Source: Eretmocerus hayati (lineage: Eukaryota; Arthropoda; Insecta; Hymenoptera; Aphelinidae). From it: DNA of 64,000 nucleotides. The notes beneath the pieces are model-generated. The model was not told the DNA's origin. It searched no databases and worked only from the letters and a program-made list of their open reading frames with translations. The position numbers were made by a program, and so were the translations under genes. The stretch is taken from the NCBI GenBank assembly GCA_029851415.1, contig CM056743.1:27504905-27568904 (forward strand), given 5' to 3'. Below, one piece after another: positions 6,725 through 51,126 of this stretch (its first letter is position 1; each line of letters begins with the position of its first letter).

Positions 6725-6781
6725 CAGGGCCCTCCAACTCGCATAGGCAAAACGGCGTGAGTTTCGAGGACCGAGCCGAGG

Positions 6782-12986: not shown

Positions 12987-13001
12987 GATAAGAGGGGAAG
13001 G

Positions 13002-19776: not shown

Positions 19777-19795
19777 TTGGTGACCTCGACAAACA
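19777..19795 (+). promoter_or_regulatory. Primer-binding site of element C (tRNA-Trp type)
   Basis: TTGGTGACCTCGAC directly after the LTR. TGGTGACC-CGAC complements the 3' end of tRNA-Trp, the usual primer of CsRn1-clade elements. Confidence 0.7.
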
Positions 19796-20212
19796 AGTGC
19801 GCGTCGCCTCGAGAGTGTGCCGGCTCGCGAAAAAATTCCGAGCGGTTTCTGGGCAGCACGACTCAAGTGTCGTCCTGAATTTCGGGTTGAGGCAGCCTAT
19901 TTGTCCTCCCCGAATCTTGCATCAACCAGTTGCACGAGTGCCAAGCTTCGTCATCGTCTGGGACAGCAACCCGGCGTGGCGGCCATATTGTCAACTCAGC
20001 GGCGTTTGGCGCCAAATCGCAGCAGCTCCGCGAGGGCCCGAGATTTGTACTCCGGGTACTCCAGCGGGCCAGCAGCAGCCAACGTCATCATCGCAGCCTC
20101 TGCAGTGGCCCAAGCGTCGCACGTCGACGCAGCGCATCCAGGCCACGCCGTGGGCAACGAGCAGGTGCAGCCTGCGACCTGGGTGCAATCCCCGGCATCG
20201 AGCTTCGGCGAG

Positions 20213-20565
20213 CTTTCTGCTCGCAGTCGCCGGGTCCATCGCGCGCGGCCAGCGTGTGGACTCACACCGTGGGATCAGCATCATCGCTTTGGCGGGCTTT
20301 CTGCTCGCAGTCGCCGAGTCCATCGCGCGCTTCAAGCGTGTGGACTCACAACGAGGGAAAATCATCGTTGGCGGGCTTTCTGCTCGCAGTCGCCGAGTCC
20401 ATCGCGCGCATCAAGCGTGTGGACTCACAACGAGGGAAAATCATCGTTGGCGGGCTTTCTGCTCGCAGTCGCCGGGTCCATCGCGCGCGGCCAGCGTGTG
20501 GACTCACACCGAGGGAGCACCATCATCGTGAGCAATCTGCTCACAGTCGCCGAGCACTGCGTGCG
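20213..20565 (+). repeat. Tandem repeat in the leader of element C
   Basis: Units starting CTTTCTGCTCGCAGTCGCCG begin at 20213, 20297, 20376 and 20455, with a degenerate fifth near 20533; period 79-84 bp. The leader between primer site and gag is 1.3 kb long. The frames read through this region (19749-20578) are repeat artefacts. Confidence 0.85.
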
Positions 20566-21076
20566 GGGTAGCACGTAGGCTCATCATCGTCGTCGGCATC
20601 GGTGCATCTGCGTGCAGTCAGCGCGCATTTCTCCGAGCCTCGCAGCAGCGTGGCAGCTAACGGCGGGCGACAGCTTTCCCGCGCTTTCACCAGCGCCGGC
20701 GGCCATTTTGCTCCAGTATCTGCGCGTAGTCAGCGCGCAGTCTCCAAACATCGCAGCAGGTATTTCAACGAATCGACGATTGAATTCCGCGCTCGCGTAA
20801 ATTCTGGGCAATTCGCCGCACCATCGTAAACATTTTCGAATCATTTTTCGAGAAACTTACGAGGAACTTGAGCAAAAATTTTTCTGTTTTTCACGTTTCC
20901 AATTTTTACTCATTTGACATTTCGAAAATTTTCAACTTTTGACAAATTTCTTGCTGAAACGCTGAGCGTGTATGCTTGTATGTGTGGGTAGGGCAAAATT
21001 GTCAATTGTGTTTGTAACTTGTCTACGTACAAGAGCTAGGCTTGCCTGCGAGCAAGAATCTTTTATTGTTTAGTGT

Positions 21077-22153
21077 ATGCAGAGACTGTTAGATTTTCTG
21101 TTCGAAATGAGTGACGCAGAGCGTGCTGACCAGGCCGAAGCTAGATTAGCCGAGCTCACGGGTGAACTTGAAACGATGCGGCGTGAAATGGATGCTTTGA
21201 GAAACGGAAACGCTCAGCGTAATAATATTAACAATGCAAATAATGGTGCCAGCAATGCCAACAATGTTCCTGCTCAGCAGCCTATTGTTCCTCAAGATCC
21301 AATCGGTCACGTAAATGCGTATGCACCAAAAATTGCGCCTTTTATGGCAAAAGATCCGGTTTTATGGTACATCCGAGCAGAATCGTCACTTAGAACCGCG
21401 AGAATAACTTCGGATGCTACAAAGTTAGACTACCTTGTTCAACAGCTTTCTGAAGCTGCGCTCGTTGCGGTTAGAGATATTTTAATGCTCAACCCACAGC
21501 CGGCTGATGCATACCAACAAGTGAAGGACAGGTTAATTTCAACTTTTGGTACTTCTGACGAGCAAACTTTGCGACAACTTTTACGGGGCGAAGTAAACCT
21601 TGATGGCAAACCTTCTTTTATTTTGAATCAACTTAGGAATAAGAATCAAGCGAATTGCCCAGACGACGTTTTGCGATCGATATTTTTAGATACGCTTCCG
21701 GAAAATCACAGGTACATTCTTGCGGTTACGAATGCGACTGATCTCGATGGTCTTGCGGCGGCCGCGGACAAATTAGCTGAAATTCCTAGCTTGAAAAGTC
21801 AAGTGTACAATGTAAATAGTAGCTCATTTTCCAACTCTAGTGCCAGTAACGTTCAATCTTGCGCAGCAGTTAGTTCTTCGAAAGACTTTGATGACGCGTT
21901 TAAGAAAATGAATGATAAAATCAATGCTCTCAGCTCAAAAATCGATAGGCTTTTCTCTCAGAACCGCGGGCGTTCTCAGCAGCGTGCAGGAAATAGTCAA
22001 GCGAGCAACGAGCAGCAACCACGTGATCCGCAAAAAATTTGCAAATTTCATAAGAAGTATAATGAAGGGGCTCGGTACTGCAAGCCGTGGTGTTTTAGCT
22101 ATCCGGATTTTGTCAAAGCTCAAGCTAAGAAAGAAAGTTCAAAAAACGATTAA
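21077..22153 (+). CDS. gag: Gag of element C (CsRn1 clade)
   Basis: A 358-residue ORF from ATG 21077; a second in-frame ATG at 21107 (MSDAERADQ) is an equally likely start. An N-terminal coiled-coil-like, Glu-rich segment is followed by an Asn-rich linker, then the capsid-like region (APKIAPFMAKDPVLWYIRAE...) and, near the C-terminus, CKFHKKYNEGARYCKPWC. That is the C-x2-H-x9-C-x3-C finger typical of CsRn1-clade Gag rather than a CCHC knuckle. The frame ends at TAA 22151-22153. The last sense codons carry the heptamer A AAA AAC at 22141-22147 in the right phase for -1 slippage into pol. Role: particle formation and RNA packaging. Confidence 0.92.
   Translation: MQRLLDFLFEMSDAERADQAEARLAELTGELETMRREMDALRNGNAQRNNINNANNGASNANNVPAQQPIVPQDPIGHVNAYAPKIAPFMAKDPVLWYIRAESSLRTARITSDATKLDYLVQQLSEAALVAVRDILMLNPQPADAYQQVKDRLISTFGTSDEQTLRQLLRGEVNLDGKPSFILNQLRNKNQANCPDDVLRSIFLDTLPENHRYILAVTNATDLDGLAAAADKLAEIPSLKSQVYNVNSSSFSNSSASNVQSCAAVSSSKDFDDAFKKMNDKINALSSKIDRLFSQNRGRSQQRAGNSQASNEQQPRDPQKICKFHKKYNEGARYCKPWCFSYPDFVKAQAKKESSKND
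22141..22147 (+). promoter_or_regulatory. -1 ribosomal frameshift heptamer (gag to pol)
   Basis: A AAA AAC; in the gag frame the codons are (tc)A-AAA-AAC, the classical X-XXY-YYZ phasing, with gag stopping two codons later. Slipping -1 enters the frame of pol, which is open across the overlap. Confidence 0.75.
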
Positions 22154-22164
22154 TTCCTTCCGTC

Positions 22165-25100
22165 ATGGAGGCGGGCGTGGAAGGTGGCAGTCAGAATCGT
22201 CTCTTCATGCGTGATCTCAATTCTGGTAGATTGTCGCTCCAAGATACGGGCGCGGATATCTCCTTAATTCCTAGAGATCCAAAATTACATACCAAGCCGT
22301 CAGGTTTCTTGTACGCGGTCAATGGTTCCAAAGTAAATGCTTATGGAGAGAGTTTTCTCATGATTCGATTTCCCGGTATCAAACGCGAGTTCCCTTGGAA
22401 ATTTCGTGTGGCCGATGTAGATTCAATGATTATAGGTGGAGATTTTTTGAAGCACTACAAGTTGATGGTCGATTTAGATGGTAGACGTCTTGTTGACAAA
22501 GAGACAGGCTCTTATGGCTTAGGTACGTGCAAACCTTCACCTCATGTTTCAATTAGATCAGTTGATCCTAATCCCGTTGCTGACGCTCAAGTCAATTCAA
22601 TGCTTTCGGAATTTCCAGAAATCACTGACACTTCGTCAGTTACTCCACCAAAAAACATCGATGTGCGTCATCACATCACCACTTTTGGGCCTCCGGTAGC
22701 TGAACGCGCGCGACGTTTACCACCCGATAAACTGAAACACGCGAAACGCGAATTTGCTGCGTATGTCAAAGCTGGGACCGCTCGTCCATCAAAAAGTCCG
22801 TGGGCCAGTCCATTGCACATGACGCCCAAGAAAGATGGAACGTGGCGTTGTTGTGGCGATTATCGCGGTCTTAACGCGAAAACAAAGCCCGATAAATATC
22901 CCACGCCAAATCTACACGATTGTACTGCGAATCTGCATGGCAAAAAGTTTTTTACAAAACTCGACCTGTACAAAGCGTACCATCAGATACCTATGGCCGA
23001 GGAAGATATCGAAAAAACGGCGGTAATCACACCGTTCGGATTGTTTGAATTCTTATTCATGACTTTCGGGCTGCGTAACGCTAGTCAAACATTTCAACGG
23101 TACTTACACCGCGCTCTCGGTGATCTTGATTTTGTTTTCATTTATATTGACGACTTGTTGATAGCGTCAAATACCCTAGAAGAACATTATCAGCACTTAC
23201 GTATTGTTTTTGAAAGATTGAAACAGTTTCATCTCAGACTTAACCTCTCGAAGTGTGTCTTTTGCACCTCTGAGCTTGAATTTTTAGGCTATTGGATCAA
23301 TTCCGAGGGAATTCGTCCCACTGATGACAAAGTCGCGGCTATTCGCGAATTTCCTAAGCCAAAAACTATTGAAGATTTGCGTCGTTTTCTCGGGATGGTA
23401 AATTTCTATCACAGAAACATGCCTCACGCTGCAAGCGCGCAAGCACCCCTCAATGTCTACTTTAAAGACTCGCGGAAAAATGATAAGCGCGTGATCAATT
23501 GGACTCCAGAAGCCGACGAGGCTTTTGAAAAAGTAAAAAATGATCTGGTAAATTCCACTCTGTTGAAACATCCTCGCCCCGGGGCTAAGATACGCATCGT
23601 CTCAGACGCATCGGACGTGGCGGCTGGCGCGGCGATGGAACAATCTTCAGAGAGTGCTCCAAATGGCTGGGAACCTATTGCGTTCTTTTCAAAAAAGTTC
23701 TCACCTACCCAGACTAAGTATAGTACGTACGATCGTGAATTGCTAGCTATGTACCTTGCACTCAAACACTTTCGTAGTCTAGTAGAGGGGCGTGAATTTA
23801 CGATTGTGACTGACCACAAACCGCTGATTTACGCGTTCATGCAAAAATCTGACAAGGCATCACCTCGTCAGTTGAATCATCTCTCGTTCATTGCACAGTT
23901 TACTACTTCAATCGAGTACTTGCGTGGACAGGATAATGTGGTTGCTGATTCGTTGTCTAGGATAGATGCGATCCGTGTACCCACTGATTTCGACCTTGTT
24001 CAGCTCTCCGAGCTTCAGGAAGCTGACGAGCAATTGAAAAGCTTGCGTGATGATCCTGAGTTTAAGAATAATTTTAGAAAATTTACCTATGGGCCAACTC
24101 ACACACCAATTTACTGTGAAATGTCAAGCGAATCAATAAGACCATACATTCCTGTGAGTCTTCGCGAGACAGTGTTCAACATGTTCCATAATCCTGCGCA
24201 TCCTAGTGCTAAGATTACTGACCGTACTATACGTCAACGTTACGTGTGGCCTGATATGCACAGAGATATCGCGAAATGGTGCAAGCACTGCCTGAATTGT
24301 CAACAGTCCAAAATCACTCGTCGCGTCAAACGCACGCCTGAGCAATTTGTTGCGCCTGATGGTCGCTTTAAACACGTTCACATCGATATCGTCGGTCCAC
24401 TAAAAAATTGTGACGGATACTCTTATATCTTGACCATGATTGACAGATTTTCTCGGTGGGTCGAGGCTGTGCCATTGCGCGATATCTCTGCAGATACTGT
24501 ATGTAGAGCGTTTTATGACACTTGGGTTTCCCGCTACGGCGTACCAGAAATCATAACTTCAGATCAAGGGGGGCAATTTGAGGGTAGATTGTTCGAATCG
24601 CTTCTAAAACTGCTTGGTTGTCAGCGCATTCGAACAACCGCTTATCACCCGGAAGCAAACGGAATGATAGAACGCTGGCACCGCGTTATGAAGTGTGCGA
24701 TCAAATGTATGGATGATGATAATTGGGTGAAACATTTGTCCACTATTCTCGTAGGTTTAAGAAACCATGTGCGTGTGGATGTCGATGCTAGCCCTGCTGA
24801 ATTTTTGTTTGGAACTACTTTGAGGCTCCCAGGAGAATTCTTTTTGCCTTACGATTTCAATCCTGAGCCAGATATTTTCATCAGTGAGTTTCGTGAGTAC
24901 ATGCGAAAATTGCGTCCGATCCCTGTAACTCATAAGCATAAGGTCAAACCCTTTGTATTCAAAGATTTGTACACTTGCTCTCATGTATGGATGGAAGTGC
25001 CTGTCAAAACTGGACTTGATCGTCCGTTTGATGGACCGTTCAAAGTTGTGAATCGTGTCAGTGACATTCTCTTCGATGTTGAAATTCGAGGAAATGTGAA

Positions 25101-25251
25101 AAGTGTCTCAGTGAACTTATTGAAGCCTGCGTACATAATTCCAGAAGACTTAGAAGCTAGACTTGCCACAGGTGATCAACCTGACAGTCGTCCTCCATTA
25201 CGGACGTACTCGAGAAAGAAAAATGTAACTTTTGCGTCTACTGTAACTTGA
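22165..25251 (+). CDS. pol: Pol polyprotein of element C (protease, RT, RNase H, integrase)
   Basis: 1028 residues from the first ATG at 22165; the frame is open upstream into gag, so the natural N-terminus is probably made by -1 frameshifting. Domains in order: aspartic protease with DTGADISLIP (residues about 27-36); reverse transcriptase with FGLRNASQTFQR and YIDD (about 328); RNase H ending with TDHKPLIYAF (about 549); integrase with an HHCC finger (HPSAKI...CKHCLNC, about 675-715) and DDE residues in HIDIVGPL (about 740), TSDQGGQFEG (about 799) and HPEANGMIERW (about 836). A C-terminal FDGPFKVVNR segment resembles the GPY/F module. No stop codon or missing catalytic residue is seen. The RT-RNaseH-integrase order is that of Ty3/gypsy. 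Confidence 0.95.
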   Translation: MEAGVEGGSQNRLFMRDLNSGRLSLQDTGADISLIPRDPKLHTKPSGFLYAVNGSKVNAYGESFLMIRFPGIKREFPWKFRVADVDSMIIGGDFLKHYKLMVDLDGRRLVDKETGSYGLGTCKPSPHVSIRSVDPNPVADAQVNSMLSEFPEITDTSSVTPPKNIDVRHHITTFGPPVAERARRLPPDKLKHAKREFAAYVKAGTARPSKSPWASPLHMTPKKDGTWRCCGDYRGLNAKTKPDKYPTPNLHDCTANLHGKKFFTKLDLYKAYHQIPMAEEDIEKTAVITPFGLFEFLFMTFGLRNASQTFQRYLHRALGDLDFVFIYIDDLLIASNTLEEHYQHLRIVFERLKQFHLRLNLSKCVFCTSELEFLGYWINSEGIRPTDDKVAAIREFPKPKTIEDLRRFLGMVNFYHRNMPHAASAQAPLNVYFKDSRKNDKRVINWTPEADEAFEKVKNDLVNSTLLKHPRPGAKIRIVSDASDVAAGAAMEQSSESAPNGWEPIAFFSKKFSPTQTKYSTYDRELLAMYLALKHFRSLVEGREFTIVTDHKPLIYAFMQKSDKASPRQLNHLSFIAQFTTSIEYLRGQDNVVADSLSRIDAIRVPTDFDLVQLSELQEADEQLKSLRDDPEFKNNFRKFTYGPTHTPIYCEMSSESIRPYIPVSLRETVFNMFHNPAHPSAKITDRTIRQRYVWPDMHRDIAKWCKHCLNCQQSKITRRVKRTPEQFVAPDGRFKHVHIDIVGPLKNCDGYSYILTMIDRFSRWVEAVPLRDISADTVCRAFYDTWVSRYGVPEIITSDQGGQFEGRLFESLLKLLGCQRIRTTAYHPEANGMIERWHRVMKCAIKCMDDDNWVKHLSTILVGLRNHVRVDVDASPAEFLFGTTLRLPGEFFLPYDFNPEPDIFISEFREYMRKLRPIPVTHKHKVKPFVFKDLYTCSHVWMEVPVKTGLDRPFDGPFKVVNRVSDILFDVEIRGNVKSVSVNLLKPAYIIPEDLEARLATGDQPDSRPPLRTYSRKKNVTFASTVT

Positions 25252-25402
25252 ATGTTGCCATCATGTATCTTATACAATCTCCTTTTTTTTTTCTTTCCGT
25301 GACTAGCGATCATCAATTATCACAAGCGTAATTTGTTCTCTGCGCAAAATTGTCACAAATTATAATTCTTGTTTTCATATCGCTGTCACTGGGGGGGGAG
25401 TA

Positions 25403-25683
25403 TGTGGGGTTCATATATGTGTAGTATAGTTATATATCTCCCTCTCCCCGCCGCAGCGGGGAGAGAGGAGAAGCGAGCGAGCCGCGCCGCGCGCAGCAGA
25501 AATCTCTCGGCTCTCGAGCAGTAAAGACGCGCCATTGTAAATACTTGTATCCCGTAGTCTAATAAACAGTTTTTTAATATTAACTCGGGCCTTCTGAATT
25601 TGTGTGTTCCTGACCACAGTACGCCGGGTGTGGGGCCCGGCTTATATATATTTTTGTGCACCCCTGCACAGTAAAATCCCACA
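25403..25683 (+). repeat. 3' LTR of element C
   Basis: 281 bp, differing from the 5' LTR by one visible substitution; preceded by the polypurine tract and followed by CCTC. Confidence 0.94.
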
Positions 25684-26209: not shown

Positions 26210-27050
26210 TCCCAAAACCTGAGAAGGTAATCCACACATAACCAGATACTCGGACAACAATTTTGTCGGCAGAGGAAATTAACCCCAAAACCTAGGAAGG
26301 CAAATTAACCCGCAAATAACCGGATGCTCGAACCGAAAATTCTGTTGGGGGAGAAATCAACCCCAAAACCCAGGAAGGCAAACTAACCCGCAAGTGCCCG
26401 GATGCTCGGACCGAAATTCTTTTCGGGGAGGAATCAAAACCTAGGAAGGACAATTAACCCGCAAATAACCGGATGCTCGAACCGAAAATTATGTCGGGGG
26501 AAAAATCAACCCCAAAACCTAGGAAGGGAAATTAACCCGCAAATAACCAGATGCTCGAACCGAAAATTCTGTCGGGGAGAAAATTAGCCCCACATCCTGG
26601 GAAGGCAAATTAACCCGCAAATGCCCGAATGCCCGGACCAAAAATTCTATCGGGGGAAAAATTAACCCCGCAAAACCCAGGAAGGCAAATAACTAACCCG
26701 CAAGTGCCCGGATGCTCGGACCGAAATCCTTTTGGGGGACTAATCAACCTCAAACCCCAGGAAGGCAAGCTAACCCGCAAATGCCCGAACCGAAAATTCT
26801 GTCGGGGGAAAAATCAACCCCATAACCTAGGAAAGAAAATTAACCCACAAATAACCGGATGCTCGAACCAAAAATTCGGACGGGGGAGAAAATTAGACCC
26901 ACATCCTGGGAAGGCAAATTTACCCGCAAATAATAGGATGCTCAAACCAAACATTTTCTCGGGGGAGAAAATTAGCCCCACATCCTAGGAAGGCGAATTA
27001 TCCCGCAAATAATCGGATGCTCGAACCAAATATTCGTGCCGGGGGGGGGG
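26210..27050. repeat. Tandem units of TE2 left arm
   Basis: About ten degenerate units of roughly 80 bp of the form CCCCAAAACC-(C/T)AGGAAGGCAAATTAACCCGCAAATAACCGGATGCTCGAACCGAAAATTCTGTCGGGGG (described here in pieces, not as one sequence). The array ends in a G10 run near 27041. Confidence 0.85.
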
Positions 27051-28040: not shown

Positions 28041-28309
28041 GGAAAAAATTCCTTCCCGTTTTCCATAACAATCGTATTGTGAACTTTTTCACTGGGCATA
28101 TTGAATATTGAATGCATTGAACCGTTCTTCAGCACAGCTCTATGGAGAGTAACAATTTATATTGAATATTAATTGATTACGTCTTGAATACCGTGAAAGT
28201 TCGTAAAATGAACGTTTTTTATGTTAAAAAAGTATTATTCAAAGATCTTTGCAGAGTTACTGAAATATTTTTGAAAGATTTCAAAAGGTTCCTGACAGAT
28301 TTCTCGCGG

Positions 28310-29280
28310 GTTTATTTGCCTTCCTGGGTTTTGGGGCTAATTTTCCCCCCCGACAGAATTTTTGGTTCGAGCCTAGCATCCGGTTATTTGCGGGTAAATT
28401 TGCCTTCCTGGGTTTTGGGGCTAATTTTCTCCCCCGAAAGAATTTTTGGTTCGAGCCTAGCATCCGGTTATTTGCGGGTAAATTTGCCTTCCTGGGTTTT
28501 GGGGCTAATTTTCTCCCCCGACAGAATTTTTGGTTCGAGCATCCGGTTATTTGCGGGTTAATTTTCCTTCCTAGGTTATGGGGTTGATTTTTCCCCCGAC
28601 AGAATTTTCGGTTCGGGCATTTGCGGGTTAGCTTGCCTTCCTGGGGTTTGGGGTTGATTAGTCCCCCAAAAGAATTTCGGTCCGAGCATCCGGGCACTTG
28701 GGGGTTAGTTTGCCTTCCTGGGTTTTGGGGTTGATTTTTCCCCCGATAGAATTTTCGGTCCGGGCATTCGGGCATTTGCGGGTTAATTTGCCTTCCCAAG
28801 ATGTGGGGCTAATTTTCTCCCCCGACAGAATGTTTGGTTCGAGCATCCGGTTATTTGCGGGTTAATTTTCCTTCCTAGGTTTTGGGGTTGATCTTTCCCC
28901 CGACAGAATTTTCGGTTCGAGCATCCGGTTATTTGCGGGTTAATTTTCCTTCCTAGGTTTTGGGGTTGATTCCTCCCCGAAAAGAATTTTCGGTCCGAGC
29001 ACCCGGGCACTTGCGGGCTAATTGGCCTTCCTGGGTTCTGGGGTTGATTTTTCCCCCGACAGAATTTTCGGTTCGAGCATCCGGTTACTTGCGGGTTAGT
29101 TTGCCTTTCTGGGTTTTGGGGTTGATTTTCCCCCCGATAGAATTTTCGGTTCGGGCATTCGGGCATTTGCGGGTTAATTAGCCTTCCCAGGTTTTGGGGT
29201 GTATTTCCTCTGCCGACAAAATTGTTGGTTCGAGTATCCGGTTATGTGTGGATTTGTTTAGCTTCTTAGGTTTTGGGATT
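28310..29280. repeat. Tandem units of TE2 right arm
   Basis: The same roughly 80-bp unit in inverted orientation, about twelve copies. It can be read as long repetitive frames on the minus strand (28281-29166), with a repeated peptide of about 28 residues; I take these frames as by-products of the repeat. Confidence 0.85.
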
Positions 29281-35600: not shown

Positions 35601-38600
35601 TCAGGAAATAGCATTTGCATCTGGTGGCACTCGTTGCGCTGATTCAAAATTTTGGAGAGAGTTGCGGGCAAGGGTACCGTGACACCGAAATTGTGAGCTG
35701 TGGAAAATCGAAAAAGACAGATCGATGCACCGAAAATTCTACTTCCCGAATCTGCAAGGGAAAAAACTCTACCTTTTTCCATTTTCTTTAAATTACCAGA
35801 AAACAAGCTCACTCCACCCATTTTGGTGCGCTTTAACCCTTGCTCGTAGCGACACACCCTTTGCCAGAGTTGCGCTGCGATTGCGAGGCTGACAAAACGC
35901 TCTAAACTCAATGAAATTTGTAGAAGTGGTATTTGTCTCGATACATTCGAAGTCATTCAAGAAATATGAGGTTCGTTTGGATCACCTTTGGTTTCAAAAA
36001 CTTACGGCACCGGGTACGAAAATAGAATTTTTAGAAGTATTACAATTAACTAATTTCTACTTTCAAGTGGCAATCGTTTTTCGGTCAGTAGAGAGATACA
36101 CGTATGTTCATGAACTTACACGAAAATTCATTCATCGCTCAATGATTAGCTTATCGATTTCCTAAAGTGTATCGATGGTGTTAAGGACTCGAATCTAAGA
36201 TAACTATAACAAAATGTATGATACTCGATTGTCAAAATGGTAATGGTATTCACAAAGAGGCTCGTTCAGAGTATTTCGATGAATTGGATGACGAAACGTC
36301 AGCACAAAAAATGATGCGGTCAAAATGGACTCTGGGATCACAACTATTCAAAGAAGCAGAAAAATAGCTGTTCTTAGAAGAATTTCATAAGAAACCGATA
36401 AATTCAACATTTCTATTTAACCTGGTTCCTGCGACAAAGCTCTCATCTAGAAATTCATAAGAAACTGTCGATATTGAAGAGCAAATTTGCTGGGTTGAAA
36501 AAGCCTCTAGATCTTGTGAGTCCCGGAAATGAACTGTAGCAGAATAGATGACGTGCCAGTTTTGAGTCTTAGAGTATTGAACGAGGTATTGAAAGTGGTT
36601 AATATTAGATTCTCAAAAATTACGCATGAGAATCTCATTGATGGACCTCTCCCTCCGCATAATATTGATTTTCTAACTCCTAAAATTGATAAATTTTGAC
36701 TCTTGAAAATGATTCAAAAAGTTCTGTAAATGTCTGGAAATTCATCCAATCCGGTATCGGGGATCGAGTAGACGTCCTGAGACTGATATAGAAATTTACT
36801 TCATTTTATGATGAAAAAGCGTGCGAAAAAGAGACACTCAAGCTTGCATGGGGCACATTAGAATTTTCTGTGAAATGATGATTCTCTGAAAGATCAATTT
36901 TCTTTAGTTGAATCTTTCATAGAAAAATATCTCATACATTGCGTTTTAAAATTATATGATACTTACTCGTCGAAATTTTTTCCAACTAAAAACGCACATC
37001 CTTATCTTGAATACGGAATATACCGCTTTCACACACACACACACGCACGGAGTGAGGGATGCGATTGGTTGATTGCTATATTATACATCAAGAGAGGGGA
37101 TCTCACATTATAGTTTCGTGCGATGAAAGGAGAGAAAGACTAGAAAGAGAGAGAGAGAGGAGAGTCAGTGGTTCGCGTCCTTTCGTCGCCGAAGAATCGT
37201 TTCCTTGTGCGTCGTCCGCTGACTGTTCTATTACAAAAGCTTTACTAGGGTCCCTATAATTAACGGGTCTAGACAAGGGGGGGTAATCTTTCTGATTGGC
37301 TCCGCCATATTCAGCGATCCCATGCTTTTCAGATGGGGACGCATCTGTGTGAGTGCGCACACACCGGTGCGCCCGTGTACGTGTAGGTAGCTGAATATGG
37401 CGGCTGCCCCCCCTTGTCTAGACCCATTAATTTTAGGGACCCTAAGCTTTACCCATCATCAGCGCCATCAAGGCCTTTGACCTTCTCTGCGCTTACCTCG
37501 TAGCATAAGTGTAACCCATTGAGTGAGTTTTTTTTTTTACTCAATCTCAACTTTGGAACTGTGCCAACCTACCATATCATCAACAGTAGACAGGTCTACT
37601 TCATCGTCGTCTTCTTCATTATCATCGAGTGGAATACATCAACGAAGTCAAGAACATCAGCGAGGACGCGTTTTAAAATTGGTTCAAGTTCGGTCCACGA
37701 GGGATGAGAAAAAGCCCATCATCGGCCCTTGCTCAAGCTCAATTAGCAGCAGTGGCGGTGGCGGTGATATCAATAGTGGTGGTGCATTGCATCAGGGACA
37801 GGCACATCATCATCTAATAACCGGTACATCATCCTCGCGTCTACCTGTTTTGGTAAGTTTTTACACTTGCATCCGACTCCAATTCACAAATTTAGGTTAT
37901 AATTATACTTGCTTTATATGTATATTGCGGTATGTGTATAATAGCTACGTGGCTTTGTGCGACACTTGCAATGAGTATTTTGTATTCATGACGCCGAGAG
38001 ATACGCATCAGTCATTTTCGGATCTATTTTGTACGTATTATAAGTAGAGTCAGACAGAGTGTGATCGATAAGCCGATAAAGTGCTAATTGTACTTTTTAG
38101 TATGACTCAATTCAGGTCGAAGCTAGATTGATTCGTGTCGTGTGGCTGGGTATAGTGAACTCGTTGAAACGCGAATTTTACGAGTGTTATTGAGACCCCT
38201 TTTTCGTAGACGATTCAGGGCATTTAAATTCGCTTGTAGAATCTTTGTTTACATACAAATGCCGTGCCTATAGAGTTGTTTCCATACGTCCAGTAGTAAA
38301 CATGATGATATATGAATGTTACTATTAAAGCACTATTTTTCTGTATCTTTTAAATAAATACTTATTAAGAGCTAATAGAAACCAACTCACTTAGATTGTC
38401 ATACTGGGATCTTACAAAACTTTAATATTCGAAGAGGTTAGTTTAAAATTTTAACCTTTCTGTTACGCAGAGCTCAAATCAGATGGATTCTTCAAGTCAA
38501 AAGTCATCGAATACCGGAGGCGCCTCATCGTCGACGATGACTGGTGTCACATCGAGCGGTGGAAACTCCACAGGTGGAGCCAATTCGTCGGCGTCTTCGG

Positions 38601-41600
38601 CCGATGGCGGAGATGTCTATGAGTTCAAGAGCTCGAAGGAAGCGACGCCTGTAAGAGGCTCAAGTTCATCACCCAATCCAAATATGGATAAAGATGGTAA
38701 AGAGTCAACGACGTCTTCTGTTGGTGGAGGTTCTTTATGTGGAGGCAACCAAAATATTGGCAGTGGATCTGCTAATCCTTCTGGTAATCCCCCGACAGGT
38801 GAGTACATAAATATTGTATACGATCTCGCTTATTATTACTTTTGGGGTTTGAGAATCAGAGAAAGTCGATTGTGTGTAACTATACCTTGTGTGTTTGATG
38901 CATCTAATTGTTTTATGGTAATTTGATTGTTTACAAAGCTTGTAGCTCTCAATTAAGCTGTATGTTTCATGGTTATGGATATAAGGCATTGTTCATCCTG
39001 ATTTCCATCGCAGTTATTTCGTTAGAAATCATCAGACACTCAAGGGTGAGATGATAGTGTCTGAATAGATAAGTTGTTGAAAGTGATAGAGCTTGCCTTG
39101 TAATTACTCGGAGTTTTTCTTGTTAGCAAGTTTCAAAATTGAATCCAAGACTCATTGCTTTGAATGTGCAGGATTGAGAGGGAAAATCCACCTTTTGGCT
39201 TGTTGATATTCCAGTTTACACTGCGCACTCAATTTTAATTCTAGGAGAAAAAGTGTGCAAGAACCAAAGGAAGACCAGTTTAGTAGTTTGTAGCAGAGAA
39301 AGAGCTTTTCGAACAATACCAAGTCCTCCTTTTGTCTATGATGATGAGATAGTTAAGTGTATCGTAGCTAGATGCCCTACTGTCAAAACTTTGGTGGGCA
39401 AAATTATATCAACGAAAAAACGATCTGAAACCTCACTCACAGCTATGATCGCAAACATCAAGAGATACCAAACCTTCAAGAAAGAGCATCTATCAACGCC
39501 AATCTACCAAGATACCATTCAAGATCTTCTAGAAGAATTTAGTGTTGGAAGAAAGTTACATGCTATTGCCTTATCGAATGTGACAAAAAATGTGAGCAAA
39601 GACAAATCTCCAGGACTGCCTTGGATTTCCAACAATAGTACCCCGCCTAGTGCAGACCTTGTCATGACAGGTTGTATCTCTTCGTTTGAAAAATACTGGA
39701 GTGATGTTGGGCAACAGCTACCAGTTGAAGATTTGCCCGACTGTGCTGCTTGTGTACACGAATCGATTGGCACCTTCAAAACTACTGAATTACAAGATGA
39801 TTGGGTGTATCCAATCCAAGTTTCGTGTCAAGAAGCTCGCTTTTTCATGCCACTCATTAAAGAAATTACGGAGCAGAGAGCATTCTGTTCTGCTGGATAT
39901 GGTGCAGAAATCATGAGAGGTGGGATGATGTGGTTAGATCAAGAAATGAAATCGGTTGCAGATAGATATCCTGACTGCAAATTCGTCATTCTAGAATACT
40001 CTAACCATTTCCAGTATGCTTTACCTGAATGGCTAATTCATGATTGTTTCGATATCATCAAACAAAAGTTTGATTTCTCACAAGTTGACTGTGAACAAGA
40101 AACAAAGTGTGTAGACGGCGAACAAGAACTCAGGAAATTTGAGAAACTTGTAGAATATTTTATTGATACCCCGATCAGACTTACTAATGGCCGTCGGTGG
40201 AGAAAATCTAACGGTATCCCGTCGGGTTCGTTGTTCAGTCATCTAATTGGGACGATGGCGAATTACTTAGTGAGTGATACCATAATTAGGATGGCTACAC
40301 AAAATAGGCCAATATGCAAAGTCGTTTTTGGCAGCAAATCTCTCATTGTTCTCCCTAAAAATGCTGTTGTCAACTTTGGCACTCTGAGTAGGATTGCTTT
40401 GAACTCATTCAATCTTAGAGTAGACGAAAAAAGTTATTGGACTCGAAACAGAAATAACATCAAATTCTTAGGATATTATAATCAAGGAGGAATACCTTTC
40501 ATCAAAACTGCAGACATTCTTCCGCGGCTATTACTTCCGCGATACGAAAAAGTGGATTGGACTTACAGAGTTAGTAAAGCCTTGCGATTTCTCTTAGTTT
40601 CTGCTGGTTCAAACTCTCTAGCTCATAAAATCGCAATGTCTGTGTACGAATGTGCATCTCAACACGATCCTGACGCCGTAAAGAAAGGCATAGCATTAGT
40701 CAAAAAAGAGAAGAGGAAATTGAAAAATCTAGGATGCATTGATTGGGAATTCTCAGAAGATCTATTTTCTGGTGTTAGTCCTCGCACCAATTGTCAAAAG
40801 CTCACTAAACGAGTTCATTTGGTGTAAACGTGCTCATCGATGTTGACGTTTTTCATCTCTAACTGAATTAACTTCTATCTCGTCTTTTTTCTCTAGATTG
40901 AACATTTCAATCAGCCAGCCGCACCTAATTCAATTAGTTTTGATCTATCATTTTGCTGGCAGAATGACAGGGTACCTTGTAAACAATGTCTTGATCTTAT
41001 TCTATAATGAGCCCATAGACTGATGATTTATTAGTAAGATGACTACTTGAAATATATTCCGATTCATGAGTTATGAATTTTCGTATTCTTTTTTTTTACT
41101 CTATCAAGTTTCTATCTGTTTCTTTTAGGCTTCATTACTTTTAGTATTCAAATAATGGTTTAGACAGCTATTGAATTTTGAGACATAAGGAAAAAAAAAC
41201 TAATGCTTAAACAAAGATGAATTTCACTCGTTAAGGCGGGAAGTCACTGAAGTTTGGAGCTCTATTTAAAATGAATTTGGGTGGCATCTTGTATTTGAAC
41301 TTTTTTCTATGTACACTTCGTTTTTTTCTTAAGTATCAACTTAAGGCAAAAGGAGAAATGCAAAATTATGTATTCATATTTTTATATAACAATAAAATTG
41401 AATTTATTTACTGGAGTCTGCGTTCTCTTTTGAAATCAAAACATATATATAGAAGTACCTTGATTACTTTATTGAATAACTAGATTTGATGTATGGTGAG
41501 TGATTGTCATTAATGCATTTGTGTCATGTTCTCGATTCTCAAACCTCTGCAATTCATATTATTACTGAGGATAGGCATGACCAACATCTTATTTTTCATT

Positions 41601-44600
41601 CTAGGTGGAGGTGGGCCTCAAAATCCAACAAGTGCTCTTGGGTGTTCGAACACTACAGGCACATCATCCACCAGTTTAGGTCTTTCTTCATCCTCGGCGT
41701 TATCGTCATCGCTGGCAACATCGGGAACTACAGACGATCCAATGATGTCGAGCACGACGTCGCCTCAATCCTCGTCGGCAAAGCGGGCTTTTGACAGCGA
41801 GGGTAGTTTGGCAGACGATCAGGATGAAGAAAGCCGTAAACGAAAGAAGAAGGACGTTGAGTCTGCGAAAGATTCATCAGGAGCTAAGGCAAACATTGCT
41901 GGAAGACAAAATATGCCTAGAAGTAATCCCTGCAGTATAGACAAGGTATGCACTTTGAATTACTAAAAAATTCCAGTAGAAATACTGACTGCCAATCATT
42001 CCTAGAAGATGAGGCTGAGCTTTTACGATTTTCACATGTCAACATTGGGAATTTTCATTACCTCAAATTGAAAACTTCATTATGTAGTCAGTGTGAAAAC
42101 TGCTGCAGTCACTATTTTTAGAGTGTGTACTCTAAATGCGATCTAGAATCTTGTACCAAATGCTTACACCAAGTGAAAACTTTGTTCTATTTTGGAGTAT
42201 CAGTCGCGAAAAATTTATACTGATTCAGACTTTATTAGTTTGGATTCCAAGTGTAATTGTGGCATAAGTGATGCGTTGTCTCTTTGACCTCTTCCTGAGT
42301 TTATTAAGAATGAGAGCAACTCCAGTTAGAGTAATGTAAAGACATGGTTTTTGTGTTTTTGAATCTTACCTGGACTTGAATTCTCACAATTCTGAAATGA
42401 TAGCAGTTGTGTTTCAGTCTGCAGGTAAAAAAGTACATCTATGGTCTTAACGACTGAATTGCGTAGAGTGCATTTGAGTTTAAACAGCCATTGTACATTC
42501 ATATGCCCATTATTGGAACATAATACGGTGTACCGGCACGTGCAAGATTCTTGCGAGAGATTGGTGTCTATTTATTCAAGTGGCAGATAAAATTCCATTC
42601 GTATCATCCCAACCTTTTATTTTGGCAATTATCTGAGAAATATTCTCTCACATCTGATGTTGAGTCAAAGCGGAGTTATTTTATTTTCGAATCTTGTTTT
42701 CGCGCGCTACATGTCATCTTATTTTACGAGCTCATCCTGTGAAAACGAAGAAATGTATTTTGCAAAAAACAAGTGTCTCAGAGCTAAAAATCTCTCACTG
42801 ACTAACAAAATTCAAGACGAAACCAATTCGATTAGCAATTTCTTCAATGAATATTCTAATCACTCGTGCTTATCTCTATCATTCAAGAACGCAAAACCAG
42901 GCAAACAGGCAGTGGGTGCAACTTCAGTGCCCAAGAGCAACCAAATGGGCAGTGGCATAAGTAGCAGTAGCAGCAGTACCATCGGTGTTGGTGGTAACAG
43001 TGGTGCCAGCGTTAGTGGAGGAGGCCCATCATCTAGTAGCGATCGCAAAAGTCCAAGCTCCAGTCTCACGGCTAACAGTCCAAAACCATCCACTGCAGCA
43101 TCATCTACCGGTGCTAGTTCAAAAGGTGTTGGTACACCATCGGGTAGTATCGAGTCTGACGGTGAAGATGATCGATCAAAAGGTTCAGATTGCAGTTCAG
43201 CACCAAAAGTGCCGCCTCTAAAAATCGTAATACCTCAGAGCGCGGAGCAGGAGCAAGGTAATCGCAATGGCAAAAACCTATTGAATCGCTCGCATCAGCT
43301 ACCTTACGTTGTGGCTAGCTCCAACAACAGTAACGATTCGATGGACAAGGAAATGAGCGGAGCACCGGGCAGCGGAGCTACAAGTCCTCTCGATGGGTCT
43401 GCTTCTAAAGGTTCGAATGCATCTGGTGCAGCAGACGATAAAAAGGACTTCAGCGGTGCTTTCGACAGCGAGTCCAGGTCGCATCAGCGTGTTCTTAGAA
43501 GTTCACATAGATCTGGAGGCAATGGCGGTAATGGTGGTGGTGGTGGCGGTGGTGGTAATCCTGGTGGCGGATCAGGAAATGGTAATGGTGGAGGTGGTAA
43601 TGGAGGCTCTGGAGGACCTGGTTCGGCAGGCAATGGAAACTACTCTAATTCGTCGCCATTACCGGCGAATTCAGCTGACAGATCGAATAACTCGTCACCA
43701 CAGCAGCAGAGGCATCATTCTCCGACACCCGAATCTACAGGGGCACCTATGGAGCAGAGTAGTGGTAAACCCGTTGATTTACCTGTGCAAAATTCACCAG
43801 CTGGAAAGAATAGCAGCAATCCAAGTGGCAGTAATAGTTCCAATACGAGTAGTGGAGCTTCTACGACGGACAAGAGTAGCGAAAAAAATGTAGAGGTGAA
43901 GAAGGAGTCAGTTGAAAGCTCGGACGCAGCCGTGAAGAAAGAAAATCCCGGTGAAGCGACAAGCAGCTCGTCATCGCAACAGCAGGCGCAGGTCGATTTG
44001 CATCCACGGAAGAGGAAATTGAAATCGAGTAAAGAGGCACAGCAAGCTGCTGCTACCGCAGCAGCAGTAGCGGCTGCGAGCGAACCACCTGAACCTATTA
44101 GCAGTGGTCCAGAGGTGCATCCACATGATCAACCCATTACAAATTGCGTCCAGCTATTTCTAAATATCAGAAGACAGGTGAGTTTCATATATAGATGAGA
44201 TTCTTCTGATACCCGATAAATTACTGATTTTCATATGTGTTTTACTAGATTGACCGAAGAAGAAAAGGTTTGTTCCCTGTGCAGCCCAAACCACCACAAG
44301 GTTTTAAAGATTACTTAATGAACCGATGTACTTACGTCCTTGCCGGAAATGCAAACAAGGAACCCAACATTAATCCTCCTCCTAATCTTACGGGGCCAAT
44401 GAAAGATCTCTACATAGAACAGGAAAAGGAACGATATAGATTGCGGATGCAACATGTTGTTGAAAAAGAGAAACTTGTCTTGTCCGTTGAACAGGAAATC
44501 CTGAGGGTGCACGGCCGAGCCGCAAGAGCCTTGGCCAATCAGTCATTACCCTTTTCAGTGTGCACGATTTTGAAAGATGAAGAAGTTTACAATGTTATTA

Positions 44601-45133
44601 CACCAGAACAAGAAGAGAAAGATAGAAATGCTAGGAGTAGATATAACGGACGTCTCTTTTTGAGCTGGCTCCAAGATGTGGATGACAAATGGGAAAAAAT
44701 TAAGGTATACTATTTATAGTTCATCCGAAACTCTTTCTAACTACCCAAATAGAGTGCAAGATTAGGTTACCAAATCCTGAATCTTAACAATTTGGGTAAG
44801 ATCAAACAGCAATGGCAAACCTACTCGATTAGTTGCATCTGATCTAGTTCAAAAGTCCATTGTACATTAGAGTCAATTGCTTGACGTTATATCCTTCTTA
44901 ACAATTTTTGAAGGTTAGAGAACAATTCAGTTTTCATGATACTATTTTTACAGGAATCTATGCTTCTAAGGCATCACAATGAAGCTGAATCGTTACATGC
45001 AGTACAGCGTATGGATTGGGAATGGAAGCTCAAAGAGGTGGGTCTCTGCGAATTCAAAGTTACACCTCAAATAGATGATCTCCATGTACCAATGGTTCAT
45101 GTCTCCGACGACTTTGATCTTTTACCTGCTTGA
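29657..45133 (+). CDS. ANKRD11/12-like chromatin regulator lacking ankyrin repeats
   Basis: Nine exons, all phases consistent: 29657-29765, 30155-30343, 32097-32291, 37587-37852, 38471-38798, 41605-41945, 42888-44177, 44249-44704, 44954-45133; 1117 residues. Exon 1 encodes SERQQLALILQMTSQ, the segment that precedes the ankyrin repeats in ANKRD11/12. Exons 8-9 encode the conserved C-terminal domain (EQEILRVHGRAARALANQSL, FLSWLQDVDDKWEKIK, AVQRMDWEWK, VSDDFDLLPA). Between them lies low-complexity Ser/Gly/Asn-rich protein with basic nuclear-localisation-like stretches (SRKRKKKD, RKRKLK). In vertebrates these proteins are nuclear corepressor-binding factors that recruit histone deacetylases. I find no ankyrin repeat codons in any intron or exon. 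Start chosen at the first ATG of the open exon; a 5' exon may exist. A viral-like ORF lies in intron 5. Confidence 0.85.
31630..31970. other. CG-richer island in ANKRD intron 2
   Basis: Base composition departs from the flanking AT-rich intron (GACGCCGCTCGGCGTC near 31826, AAGAGCGCGG inverted near 31650). A 74-codon frame at 31728-31952 has no recognisable domain. It could be an alternative promoter, an alternative exon or a transposon remnant. Confidence 0.35.
33108..33942. mobile_element. Inverted-repeat element with GTACCCAACTTGCC termini
   Basis: 835 bp in ANKRD intron 3. The left end TAAGGTAAAAGTACCCAACT and the right end AGTTGGGTACACTTACC are inverted. Internal copies of the same word occur near 33137, 33517 and 33723. 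A 5-bp direct repeat TTATC flanks it (33103-33107 and 33943-33947). No protein-coding frame. Confidence 0.65.
34794..35479. mobile_element. Foldback/MITE with GCGAAGTTAC ends
   Basis: The arms are diverged inverted copies: GCGAAGTTACTGCCATTTTG at 34795 against an inverted match ending at 35478, with TGGGTGCATAATTGTTTCAA near 34910 mirrored near 35360. About 690 bp. Target duplication not resolved. Confidence 0.65.
37030..37245 (+). promoter_or_regulatory. Possible internal promoter of the ANKRD-like gene
   Basis: A CA repeat, then GCGATTGGTTG (inverted CCAAT) and CTATATTATACATC (TATA-like) within 30 bp, followed by a GA-rich and CG-containing leader typical of an insect 5' UTR, about 350 bp upstream of exon 4. 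Transcripts starting here would skip exons 1-3. Confidence 0.3.
37246..37444. mobile_element. hAT-like MITE
   Basis: 199 bp. The ends TAGGGTCCCT and AGGGACCCTA are inverted, extending over about 36 bp with a few mismatches (GGGTCTAGACAAGGGGGG and its inverse). The 8-bp target duplication AGCTTTAC lies at 37238-37245 and 37445-37452. TAGGG ends plus an 8-bp duplication fit hAT. Confidence 0.85.
39178..40827 (+). CDS. Endogenous partitivirus-like RNA-dependent RNA polymerase ORF with altered catalytic motifs
   Basis: Uninterrupted frame of 550 codons in ANKRD intron 5, same strand as the gene; with residue 1 at 39253 the product is 524 residues, close to a whole partitivirus RdRp. Diagnostic features: KDKSPGLPW (116-124), LPEWLIHDCFDII after motif A (257-269), motif B NGIPSGSLFSHLIGTMANYL (320-339) and IKFLGYYN (403-410). 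Motif A shows ILEYSNHFQ, with Glu and Gln where active enzymes have Asp. Motif C shows FGSKSL, with Ser-Lys where active enzymes have two Asp. So it should not polymerise RNA. There is no ATG before 39445; a TTTTAATTCTAG acceptor at 39244 is in phase with exon 5. An AATAAA lies at 41391. It is an old integrated viral gene with its frame kept, perhaps exonised. Confidence is high for RdRp origin and moderate for expression. Confidence 0.85.
   Translation, partial: EGKSTFWLVDIPVYTAHSILILGEKVCKNQRKTSLVVCSRERAFRTIPSPPFVYDDEIVKCIVARCPTVKTLVGKIISTKKRSETSLTAMIANIKRYQTFKKEHLSTPIYQDTIQDLLEEFSVGRKLHAIALSNVTKNVSKDKSPGLPWISNNSTPPSADLVMTGCISSFEKYWSDVGQQLPVEDLPDCAACVHESIGTFKTTELQDDWVYPIQVSCQEARFFMPLIKEITEQRAFCSAGYGAEIMRGGMMWLDQEMKSVADRYPDCKFVILEYSNHFQYALPEWLIHDCFDIIKQKFDFSQVDCEQETKCVDGEQELRKFEKLVEYFIDTPIRLTNGRRWRKSNGIPSGSLFSHLIGTMANYLVSDTIIRMATQNRPICKVVFGSKSLIVLPKNAVVNFGTLSRIALNSFNLRVDEKSYWTRNRNNIKFLGYYNQGGIPFIKTADILPRLLLPRYEKVDWTYRVSKALRFLLVSAGSNSLAHKIAMSVYECASQHDPDAVKKGIALVKKEKRKLKNLGCIDWEFSEDLFSGVSPRTNCQKLTKRVHLV
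39233..39244 (+). promoter_or_regulatory. Candidate splice acceptor in front of the RdRp-like ORF
   Basis: TTTTAATTCTAG followed by GA-GAA-AAA. Exon 5 of the host gene ends with one base of a codon, and this acceptor supplies the other two and stays in the RdRp frame. The phase match alone has a one-in-three chance of being accidental. Confidence 0.45.
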
Positions 45134-45626: not shown

Positions 45627-46532
45627 TCAGTTGGACTCCTTTTTGGGCTGGGGCTCCTTGGTGTTGTTGGTAGGATCTAGATCCACAGGTTTGTCGTAAC
45701 CCATGAGCCTTATGTAATGATCTTGGTTGAAGAAACACTTTGCATCCAGGAAAAATTTCTTTCCTTTGATAGCACAAGAACAAAACATTCCAAGAACAGT
45801 CGGGACTGTCACATCCTCCACCGTAAACTCAGTCTATGAAGGAAGAAGATGAATGTCGTTAGACTTACATTTGTCAACAACATAACAAAGCAAAGTTTTA
45901 TAAATATTTTACCTTTTTCTCCCTTGCAAACAGATTGAAAGTTGTAGCCATATACTTGTCTTCTTCAGGGAAATAGTGAACATATAAAACATATCTTCTA
46001 GTAAAAGCGTGAATCATTAGAGGTGTTCCTATGGCAAAAATTCCAACAAGAGTAAACAGTGGTAATGTCATGCTGTTAATTGTTCCAGCTTCCATAGCTT
46101 TTTGATACACAAATGGTTGAACTGATAAGCCGATTGTTGAAGTACACAGTGTAAAGATTTTGAGATTTCGAATGTTTTTAATCAGCATCCCCTCATAGAT
46201 CAATACTTTTTTATCGTCTGTATTATCTGCTGCAGTGGCAGGCTCACTTCTGGAAGAATAATGACGAGTTGTGCTGATTGTTGGCACACTGATGGCACCC
46301 TGTAAAGAAATATGATTTGGACAATAATGATAATTATCATCATACATGCAAATTTACCTTTTGATACTTCGTTTCACATAGTTCATTTTAGAAAGTATTC
46401 AGAGATTACTCTAACCTTGCATCTGCAGTGACACGCTGTTGCAGGTAGATCGAAGCTGATTTTTATGAGTTTTGAGCTTGAAGCACACCATTTCAAGTTT
46501 CCATTCCGAAGAATAGCTCTGAAAACTGACAT
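45627..46532 (-). CDS. TMEM70: TMEM70-like mitochondrial ATP synthase assembly factor
   Basis: Three exons on the minus strand: 46416-46532, 45913-46299 and 45627-45833; all phase 0; 236 residues. Start chosen at the ATG at 46532 (MSVFRAILR), which gives a basic, Ser-containing mitochondrial presequence; an acceptor-like site just upstream suggests a 5'UTR intron. The body starts with VLIYEGMLIKNIRNLKIFTL, followed by two hydrophobic segments (about residues 88-108 and 117-139), then FTRRYVLYVHYFPEEDKY and the C-terminal HYIRLMGYDKP, all recognisable from TMEM70. In the family the protein sits in the mitochondrial inner membrane and helps build the ATP synthase c-ring and complex I. It is convergent with the ANKRD-like gene; a minus-strand AATAAA at 45334-45339 would make the 3' UTRs overlap. 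Confidence 0.88.
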
Positions 46533-49388: not shown

Positions 49389-51126
49389 ATGCGGCTGGAA
49401 TACGAATACCTATCGCAGAAGCATCTCCAGGGCTTCGAGTCGTATAAGGTAAGAATTTATAAGCATAATAGCCTCGTATTATCCTTGCTCGATTGATTTT
49501 ACCCGGTGTATACTTAGCTCTCCAAGGGTTGCCAGTTTATACTCTTATTTCACATCCTTTATGTTATTACAGTACAGTTCAGTGGATAATAGCCCCATCA
49601 GCATTTATGTGATGCACCCGTTTTGGAACCGAGTCGTTCGGGTGAGTGATACAATCAGAACTTGACCGATAAAAAAAGCGTTATCTAAAACTCGCGTGAT
49701 CATATATTCCTCTTTGTCTACTCTGATTACAGTTGTTTCCTAAGTGGGTGGCTCCAAATGTTCTTACCTTTGCTGGATTCCTATTTACGGTGCTCAATTT
49801 TGTACTATTTGCATGGTACGATTACTACTACTATGCTTCGAGCATAGTAATGCCTCCAGGTATACCAAACTATCCACCAGTGCCTAACTGGGTTTTTGCC
49901 ATGGCTGCTTTCAATATATTCATGGCTCATACTTTAGGTAAGCTTTCAAGTGTCTTGATTTCATTTGTTTTCATGTAATCGAGGGTATTCATTAATTGAT
50001 TTGGTGTCAATTTTTTTCAGATGGAATCGATGGAAAGCAAGCTAGAAGAACGCAAACTTCTGGTCCCCTTGGCGAGCTGTTTGATCATGGATTAGACAGT
50101 TGGACTGCCATGTACATCACCACTTGCATGTTTTCTGTGTTTGGCAGGACTGACTTTAGTGTTTCGCCTCTCAGAATGTACTTCATATTATGGAATGTGT
50201 TTGTTACCTTTTATCTTAGCCATTGGGAAAAGTACAACACTGGAGTACTATTCTTGCCATGGGGATATGATGCTTCTATGATAGCAACAGCAGGAGTGTT
50301 CCTACTGACTAGCATTTATGGTTTCCAAATGTGGAAATTCACTGCTTACGGAATTGACTCTGGTTTGATATTTGAAATAGTTTTGTATGTGAGCGCGTTC
50401 ATCTCTAGTACGCCTGTAGTTTTGTGGAACATCTACAAGTGAGTTGATTTTGTTTACAAGTCGAGTAAGATACTGTTGGACAGACAGCATTAATTTTGCT
50501 TCGTATTCTCCGCACAGGTCCTATAGAGATAAAACAGGTAAACTGTTATCTTTCTCTGAAGCCATGAGGCCCTTGATTCCTCTGATGATTCTGGTTGTAA
50601 CAACAACTGTTTGGGCATCGTTCTCCCCATCCAGAATAATTGATGCTGATCCTAGGATCATTTTCTTCACTACAGGCACAATCTTTTCCAATATATGTGT
50701 AATTATCTGTTCACTGATAACATTTCAATTATCAAATATTCTAACCAGCACTTGTCTGATGATGCTGCTTCAACTTTTCAGAATCGCTTGATTGTGTCCC
50801 AAATGAGTAATACAAGGTGTGAAGTCTTACCATGGATACTTTTCCCTGTTGTTGCTGCAGCACTTCTTGCATTTCTTGTGCCAGCCATTGATTTGCTGCT
50901 TATGTACTTATTGGGTGCTTTTACCTTGTTAGCTCATATCCATTATGGTACATGTGTTGTACGTATCATCTTTTATTACTTCTTTTATTATGATCAAAAT
51001 ATTTAGTCATTCTAATTTTAGCAAAATCCAAATTACTAAAACCGTCTCTATTCATTTTTGTAGGTGCGTCAAATGTGTCGACATTTCCGTCTGAATACTT
51101 TCAGCATAAAAGATCATTCAGAATGA
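49389..51126 (+). CDS. EPT1: Ethanolaminephosphotransferase 1 (SELENOI/EPT1 orthologue)
   Basis: Seven exons, phases consistent: 49389-49448, 49573-49641, 49733-49937, 50021-50438, 50518-50698, 50782-50958, 51064-51126; 390 residues. The start [20 protein letters not shown] and YVMHPFWN match the family. The CDP-alcohol phosphotransferase signature D-G-x2-A-R-x8-G-x3-D-x3-D is complete ([10 protein letters not shown]...[12 protein letters not shown], about residues 112-138), followed by [19 protein letters not shown] and several membrane helices. It transfers phosphoethanolamine from CDP-ethanolamine to diacylglycerol in the ER/Golgi membrane. The intron at 50699-50781 is only 83 bp. The stop is a UGA after KDHSE, aligned with the selenocysteine codon of vertebrate SELENOI (see findings); only seven sense codons follow before the next stop. 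Confidence 0.92.

Follow-up and report, generated by a model that had tools for sequence, protein, structure and literature searches.

Genes related to the RNA-dependent RNA polymerase (RdRp) genes of partitiviruses are documented in the genomes of insects (PMC12027680, PMC6955108, PMC3832450); one account lists 52 such proteins from cellular genomes, over half of them from insects, reports motifs shared among them and suggests that they may act as RdRps or reverse transcriptases (RTs) (PMC12027680). The presence of a partiti-like RdRp in an insect genome is thus already known, and what distinguishes the locus described here is a dead active site in an open frame. The locus is a frame of 549 codons in a 64,000-nucleotide stretch of the genome of the hymenopteran Eretmocerus hayati (assembly GCA_029851415.1, contig CM056743.1, positions 27,504,905 to 27,568,904 of the forward strand), hereafter the window, in whose coordinates all positions are given. 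The frame is probably a domesticated (exapted) inactive RdRp, kept as a protein-coding frame after it had lost catalysis. In the literature searched (one library, supplements not covered) no open-frame, active-site-dead partiti-like endogenous viral element (EVE) was found, although some of the 52 proteins mentioned above (listed in Table S3 of that work) may also be dead.

Among exapted genes of RNA viruses, an analogous case is eEBLL-1 of Eptesicus bats, derived from a bornavirus L gene: there, too, a long RdRp-derived open frame was kept after endogenisation, and the case was argued with a stop-codon simulation of the same kind as that used below (PMC4865735). The differences are that eEBLL-1 comes from another virus group, keeps its RdRp motifs, is shown to be transcribed and has a ratio of nonsynonymous to synonymous substitution rates below 1 on two branches (PMC4865735), whereas the motifs of the present frame, known from genome sequence alone, are lost; retention of RdRp motifs is, in any case, not a general requirement of exaptation. 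The endogenised partitivirus RdRp of Machilis hrabei is likewise a partiti-like RdRp residing in a genome, its coding capacity being well conserved, and the part of that account covered here makes no mention of active-site loss (PMC6955108). The EBLN genes exemplify the exaptation of RNA-virus genes by hosts (PMC4982594), in the case of itEBLN with an antiviral effect (PMC4865735); they differ from the present case in deriving from a nucleoprotein, not a polymerase.

An open frame in a host intron

The RdRp-derived frame (39178-40824, + strand) has no internal stop, ends with TAA at 40825-40827 and is bounded upstream by an in-frame TGA at 39175, being thus defined from stop to stop; its C-terminal end aligns with those of its six nearest relatives, so that its stop lies approximately at the expected place. 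When the whole host intron was shuffled base by base 300 times, the longest stop-free runs in the six frames had a mean of 90 and a maximum of 148 codons. The first in-frame ATG is codon 90, and a product started there would have 460 codons; the frame is open, as in an exapted EVE gene of the eEBLL-1 type, but without a start codon before this position.

The frame lies in sense relative to the host gene, within the first coding intron found, and the C-terminal domain of this gene (44249..45133) resembles what we take to be ANKRD11/12; Pfam gave no match above its cut-off for the exon 44249-44719, the one of the two last exons that the scan covered. The intron opens with a GT donor at 38799-38800, and the exon start at 41605 has the top score among 175 AG sites; the 5' exon (ATG 38483), which ends in phase 1, and the exon at 41605 form one continuous reading frame. 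Host exons therefore flank the frame on both sides (38483-38798 and from 41605), as is expected of an EVE. An earlier note, made by a model from the letters of the window and a list of their open reading frames, had described a nearly full-length RdRp-like frame in a host intron, and both statements held: the frame is far longer than any run in the shuffled intron, and the GT-AG intron 38799-41604 joins its exons in frame. The repeats within the intron revealed no clear target-site duplication; they comprised short direct repeats only, which were not compared with chance.

The same intron lends itself to another arrangement, in which the ANKRD11/12-like gene would use the frame as an alternative 3' exon, the host exon being joined to 39245 with phase 1 on both sides and the new exon ending after the AATAAA at 41391; the resulting chimera, of about 105 host residues and 527 RdRp-derived residues, would be compatible with a domesticated pseudo-polymerase. 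Candidate in-frame acceptors exist at 39215 and 39245, and the latter resembles the host acceptor at 41605 and ranks fifth among the 175 AG sites; the acceptor weights, however, are hand-written, the score of 39245 is nearly equalled by the out-of-frame sites at 39297 and 39172 and surpassed by three sites that lie downstream of the frame, and an agreement of phase has a one-in-three chance of arising by accident. We consider this arrangement unlikely.

Kinship with partiti-like RdRps

Its similarities place the frame among the descendants of the partiti-like RdRp family PF00680, which the piece 39781-40824 matches with an E value of 9.4e-15 (54.7 bits vs a cut-off of 23.9). A protein search with a two-sequence profile yielded 83 relatives among 4953 candidates, comprising named arthropod partiti-like viruses and one protein of the Apolygus lucorum genome. 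The latter (GE061_018588, P0021) is RdRp-like, belongs to the same wider family and lies on a contig of 66.6 Mb, being therefore apparently chromosomal as well; it differs from the present frame in keeping all four catalytic Asp and in occupying another branch of the tree. In that tree the frame forms a clade of seven with P0071, P0073, P0074, P0075, P0077 and P0079 (support 100/99), the active sites of these six RdRps being mostly intact; within the clade it adjoins P0075 and P0079 with weak support (76/86), and its exact place is unsure because of its long end branch (2.46 vs 0.11-0.88 for the six relatives).

Other searches were less productive. A protein search with the single sequence gave 1644 candidates, one of them a relative, and a search with a profile of the clade gave 4322, of which 4 were relatives, none of these new; since the clade profile missed five of the six database sequences that it contains (P0071, P0073, P0074, P0075 and P0077), it says little on absence. 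In these two protein searches, whose sensitivity is limited, no close orthologue of similar length appeared, and no relative was found in viral contigs (queried with P0001 and A2) or in bacterial and archaeal genome contigs (queried with A2). Against solved structures, the profile query matched RdRps and a single-piece query found nothing relevant; the structure predicted for the frame has the right-hand fold. In the rest of the window (1-39000 and 41001-64000), blastn with three pieces gave only two matches of 15-16 bases and tblastn with two pieces gave none at E 0.1, while the 83 relatives produced one weak match (E 0.005), to the RT part of a long terminal repeat (LTR) element.

Loss of the active site

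In the alignment with the 83 relatives, in which the two Asp of motif C could be scored in 82 rows (one relative has no residue there), all four metal-binding Asp of an active RdRp are replaced in the frame. In motif A, the Asp found in 82/83 and 83/83 relatives have become Glu and Gln; in motif C, the Asp-Asp pair of the relatives (82/82 and 81/82) has become Ser-Lys. Of these residues, the first Asp of motif A and the Asp of the GDD sequence serve catalysis, while the second Asp of motif A acts in sugar selection (PMC5850383); in the picobirnavirus RdRp the metal-binding active site is formed by the Asp pair of motif C together with the first Asp of motif A (PMC4831847). The damage extends further, the motif F loop being without its conserved basic residues and motif B having Ser for its conserved Thr, a mild change, and another residue for the neighbouring Asn. 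The claim that every catalytic acidic residue had been replaced has to be narrowed: the four Asp are indeed gone, and taken strictly it was rejected, one motif A replacement being Glu, which is still acidic. Likewise, of the structural motifs said to be retained, KDKSPGLPW and the Ser-Gly of motif B are in place, but the losses are wider than had been stated. Coordinates are collected in Table 1.

Table 1. Features of the host gene and of the RdRp-derived frame (window coordinates)
Feature	Position	Strand	Basis or remark
First coding exon found of host gene	38483..38798	+	ATG at 38483, phase 1 end, GT donor 38799
Host intron holding the RdRp-like frame	38799..41604	+	GT-AG, exons join in frame
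Partiti-like RdRp-derived open frame	39178..40827	+	549 codons + TAA
Candidate 3' splice site, exon start 39245	39243..39244	+	would join host exon in frame with RdRp frame; speculative
First in-frame ATG	39445..39447	+	codon 90
KDKSPGLPW, retained fingers motif, presumably motif G	39598..39624	+	alignment
Loop taken to be motif F, codons 191-210, lost	39748..39807	+	17.7% identity vs 80.7% among six relatives
Motif A, codons 269-285	39982..40032	+	alignment; both Asp replaced, one extra residue between them
Motif B, codons 344-365	40207..40272	+	alignment; Ser-Gly kept, Thr to Ser, adjacent Asn replaced
Motif C, codons 381-393	40318..40356	+	alignment; GSK vs relatives' GDD
Motifs D/E, codons 416-441, near relatives' level	40423..40500	+	54.5% vs 58.3% identity
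AATAAA, possible polyadenylation signal after the frame	41391..41396	+	sole AATAAA/ATTAAA in 40701-41700; speculative
Last host exons found, C-terminal domain	44249-44719 and 44912-45133 (span 44249..45133)	+	reading frames

The residues that the frame carries at the four catalytic positions occur in 0 of the 83 relatives; relatives sharing them had been named beforehand as what would speak against a host function. The same count bears on the proposal that the losses predate integration, according to which an inactive RdRp paralogue, borne on a viral or satellite-like segment living on a helper virus, was caught in the genome as a recent copy. The long end branch would agree with such a history, as would P0077, a member of the same clade on a contig of 2718 bases, which is missing a stretch of about 30 residues, among them part of motif F, and is altered in motifs B and C, so that damaged forms do exist among deposited sequences. 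P0077, however, may itself be an integrated copy, its changes perhaps pointing to repeated loss or to a second integration, and the protein searches, within their limited sensitivity, brought up no protein of the kind proposed; together with the count of none among 83, this makes a loss before integration improbable.

Uneven loss of conserved positions

The losses concentrate in charged and active-site residues. Among the 38 columns at least 98% conserved in the relatives, the frame has lost 8/12 that are charged and 2/26 that are uncharged (Fisher p=3.5e-4), or 7/12 and 1/26 when Asp-to-Glu and Thr-to-Ser are scored as kept (p 4.3e-4); with the threshold at 95% (58 columns), the figures are 9/16 and 6/42 (p 0.0023). 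The frame departs at 15 of these 58 columns, the next worst of the 83 relatives at 9. A regional view leads to the same picture: mean percent identity of the frame to the six relatives, followed by identity among the six, is 34.9/45.0 in the fingers (codons 141-190), 36.5/51.3 in codons 211-268, 36.5/72.9 in the motif A region, 47.3/52.2 in codons 286-343, 50.8/68.8 in the motif B region, 21.3/21.1 in codons 366-380, 38.5/55.9 in the motif C region, 17.4/23.0 in codons 394-415 and 31.8/46.7 in the thumb (motif F and motifs D/E are given in Table 1); the region most conserved in the relatives is among the least conserved in the frame, while the palm scaffold and motifs D/E remain near the viral level. 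Where a column hydrophobic in all siblings has changed, the frame has mostly kept it hydrophobic, in 29 of 38 cases in the core (codons 141-549; 0.55 expected, p 0.006) and in 37 of 51 over codons 25-549 (p 0.009); drawn from a single sequence, the conservation and hydrophobicity tests are not independent.

In arthropods, insertions derived from viruses frequently serve as sources of PIWI-interacting RNAs (piRNAs), and if the locus functioned as RNA, for instance by supplying piRNAs directed against related viruses, the open frame would be incidental. Such a function, however, needs neither an open frame nor the sparing of structural residues and hydrophobic columns, and the sense orientation in the host transcript would by itself yield no antisense RNA; we give it little credence.

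The open frame and the active-site changes are also hard to reconcile under neutral decay. In a simulation of 400 runs, confined to the frame and ignoring indels, the share of copies free of stops was 45% at 0.01 substitutions per site, 24% at 0.02, 2.5% at 0.05 and 0.5% at 0.1, and none survived at 0.2. The four Asp codons comprise 12 bases, and the probability that at least 7 of these change is 4e-7 at 0.05 and 1.8e-3 at 0.2, values which overstate the case because the codons were picked for having changed (the 7 changed bases were counted by hand). No single divergence fits both the open frame and the active-site changes well, and uniform neutral decay fits badly. An ordinary, recent, neutral EVE, stop-free by luck and with active-site changes that are random hits, would account for the missing early ATG and for the broad loss of conserved columns, and at 0.01 substitutions per site nearly half of the simulated copies stay open, indels again ignored; but so low a divergence fails to produce the 7 base changes (below 1e-6 at 0.05, with the same overstatement), and random hits would not be so unevenly spread over conserved columns. 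This explanation, too, appears unlikely.

Selection on the fold is, then, best supported, because most structural invariants are kept and the losses fall chiefly on charged and active-site residues, and purifying selection on a folded protein is what we infer for an exapted RdRp; in this respect the earlier suggestion of a fold selected for a non-polymerase role gains from the uneven loss and from the bad fit of neutral decay, as an inference from one genome. Several points weigh against this reading. Its basis is one sequence from one genome, and the first 89 codons contain no ATG. The N-terminal piece (39181-39780) matches no RdRp family in Pfam, and identity in codons 25-140 is 14.4 against 34.2 among the relatives. 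The six siblings share 128 invariant columns, of which the frame has lost 56, compared to 1 to 21 when each sibling is left out in turn, and at the columns at least 95% conserved the frame matches in 74%, its siblings in 92-98%, so that constraint, if present, would be weaker than in the virus; part of the change may, in view of the end branch, predate integration. The textbook motif positions (lost 7/10 vs 3/28 elsewhere, p 8.7e-4; 5/10 vs 3/28, p 0.019, with mild changes scored as kept) and a wider motif set (9/13 vs 1/25, p 3.8e-5) were both fixed when the active-site alignment was already known, for which reason the split by charge, although also chosen late, is the fairer. The mirror test, on changes from polar to hydrophobic, is weak in the core (12/63, 0.29 expected, p 0.046) and gives 23/88 over codons 25-549 (0.30 expected, p 0.28). 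Confidence in the structure model partly reflects the relatives, since its alignment drew on 44 of the 83, nearly all with an intact active site; the model was rejected as evidence of selection. Finally, in the minireplicon test of eEBLL-1 the activity of the virus polymerase was unaffected (PMC4865735), and charge, as set out below, does not favour RNA binding.

Charge and possible mechanism

Positive residues line the nucleotide and template channels of RdRps (PMC5850383). In the frame, the net charge of the motif F loop has passed from +1/+2 in the relatives to -3, and that of codons 141-190, in the fingers, is -4 (relatives -1 to +7), while the motif C region has passed from -2/-3 to +2 and the thumb carries +9 (relatives -3 to +5); for the whole frame the value is +15, within the +9 to +16 of the relatives. 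Nucleotide entry and part of the fingers have thus lost positive charge, and palm and thumb have gained it. RNA binding, which the earlier note had offered as a possible role, is not well supported by this distribution, the increase in positive charge being confined to the thumb and the motif C region; binding via the nucleotide channel was rejected, the motif F loop being without its basic residues.

For the picobirnavirus RdRp a preference for the conserved 5' end of the viral RNA has been reported, and co-packaging of RdRp and RNA has been proposed, perhaps in partitiviruses too (PMC4831847). Probably, an arthropod partiti-like virus was the source of an RdRp gene that became inserted, in sense, in the ANKRD11/12-like host gene, within the earliest coding intron recognised, and that was kept as a protein-coding frame after catalysis had been lost; in the mechanism proposed here, the protein would still fold as an RdRp hand and would occupy sites on viral RNA, or on partners of the viral RdRp, without copying. 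Candidate routes of expression are the ATG at codon 90, a promoter of its own, or in-frame splicing from the host exon. That such a protein acts as a dominant-negative decoy against related partiti-like viruses is a tentative suggestion, which we consider possible rather than probable; alternatives would be a role as partner of a host protein, or as an alternative ANKRD11/12 end reached via the in-frame acceptors at 39215 or 39245. The fullest version, a pseudo-polymerase host gene acting as a protein decoy, possibly as an in-frame alternative end of the ANKRD11/12-like gene and possibly of more than one origin, as the damaged P0077 might suggest, is rather doubtful.

Other elements in the window

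The window also holds two LTR elements. The first (6779-13298), retrotransposon-like, has end repeats that lie 6220 bases apart and are identical over 300 bases, with a 68-base tandem repeat inside each; its identical ends suggest a recent insertion, and its frame 8408-9169 gives weak gag and zinc-knuckle matches, below cut-off. In the second (19496-25683), the identity of the end repeats extends over 281 bases, and a frame of 359 codons precedes an open pol frame of 1040 codons (RT, RNase H, integrase). Satellite arrays with units of about 78 bases occupy 26238-27045 and 28306-29277, their consensus units looking, by eye, mutually reverse-complementary. Two neighbouring host genes encode a TMEM70-family protein (45898-46353, - strand) and a CDP-alcohol phosphatidyltransferase (49996-50791, + strand; Pfam match in 49996-50442), which we take to be probably an ethanolamine phosphotransferase.

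Significance

The usual interpretation of endogenous RdRp genes is that they are either fossils or polymerases that may still work. If the active site of the Eretmocerus hayati frame has indeed been stripped while the scaffold was spared, the host would be making use of the fold of a viral polymerase, and not of its chemistry; the frame would then be a concrete candidate on which to test protein-based immunity against double-stranded RNA viruses in arthropods.
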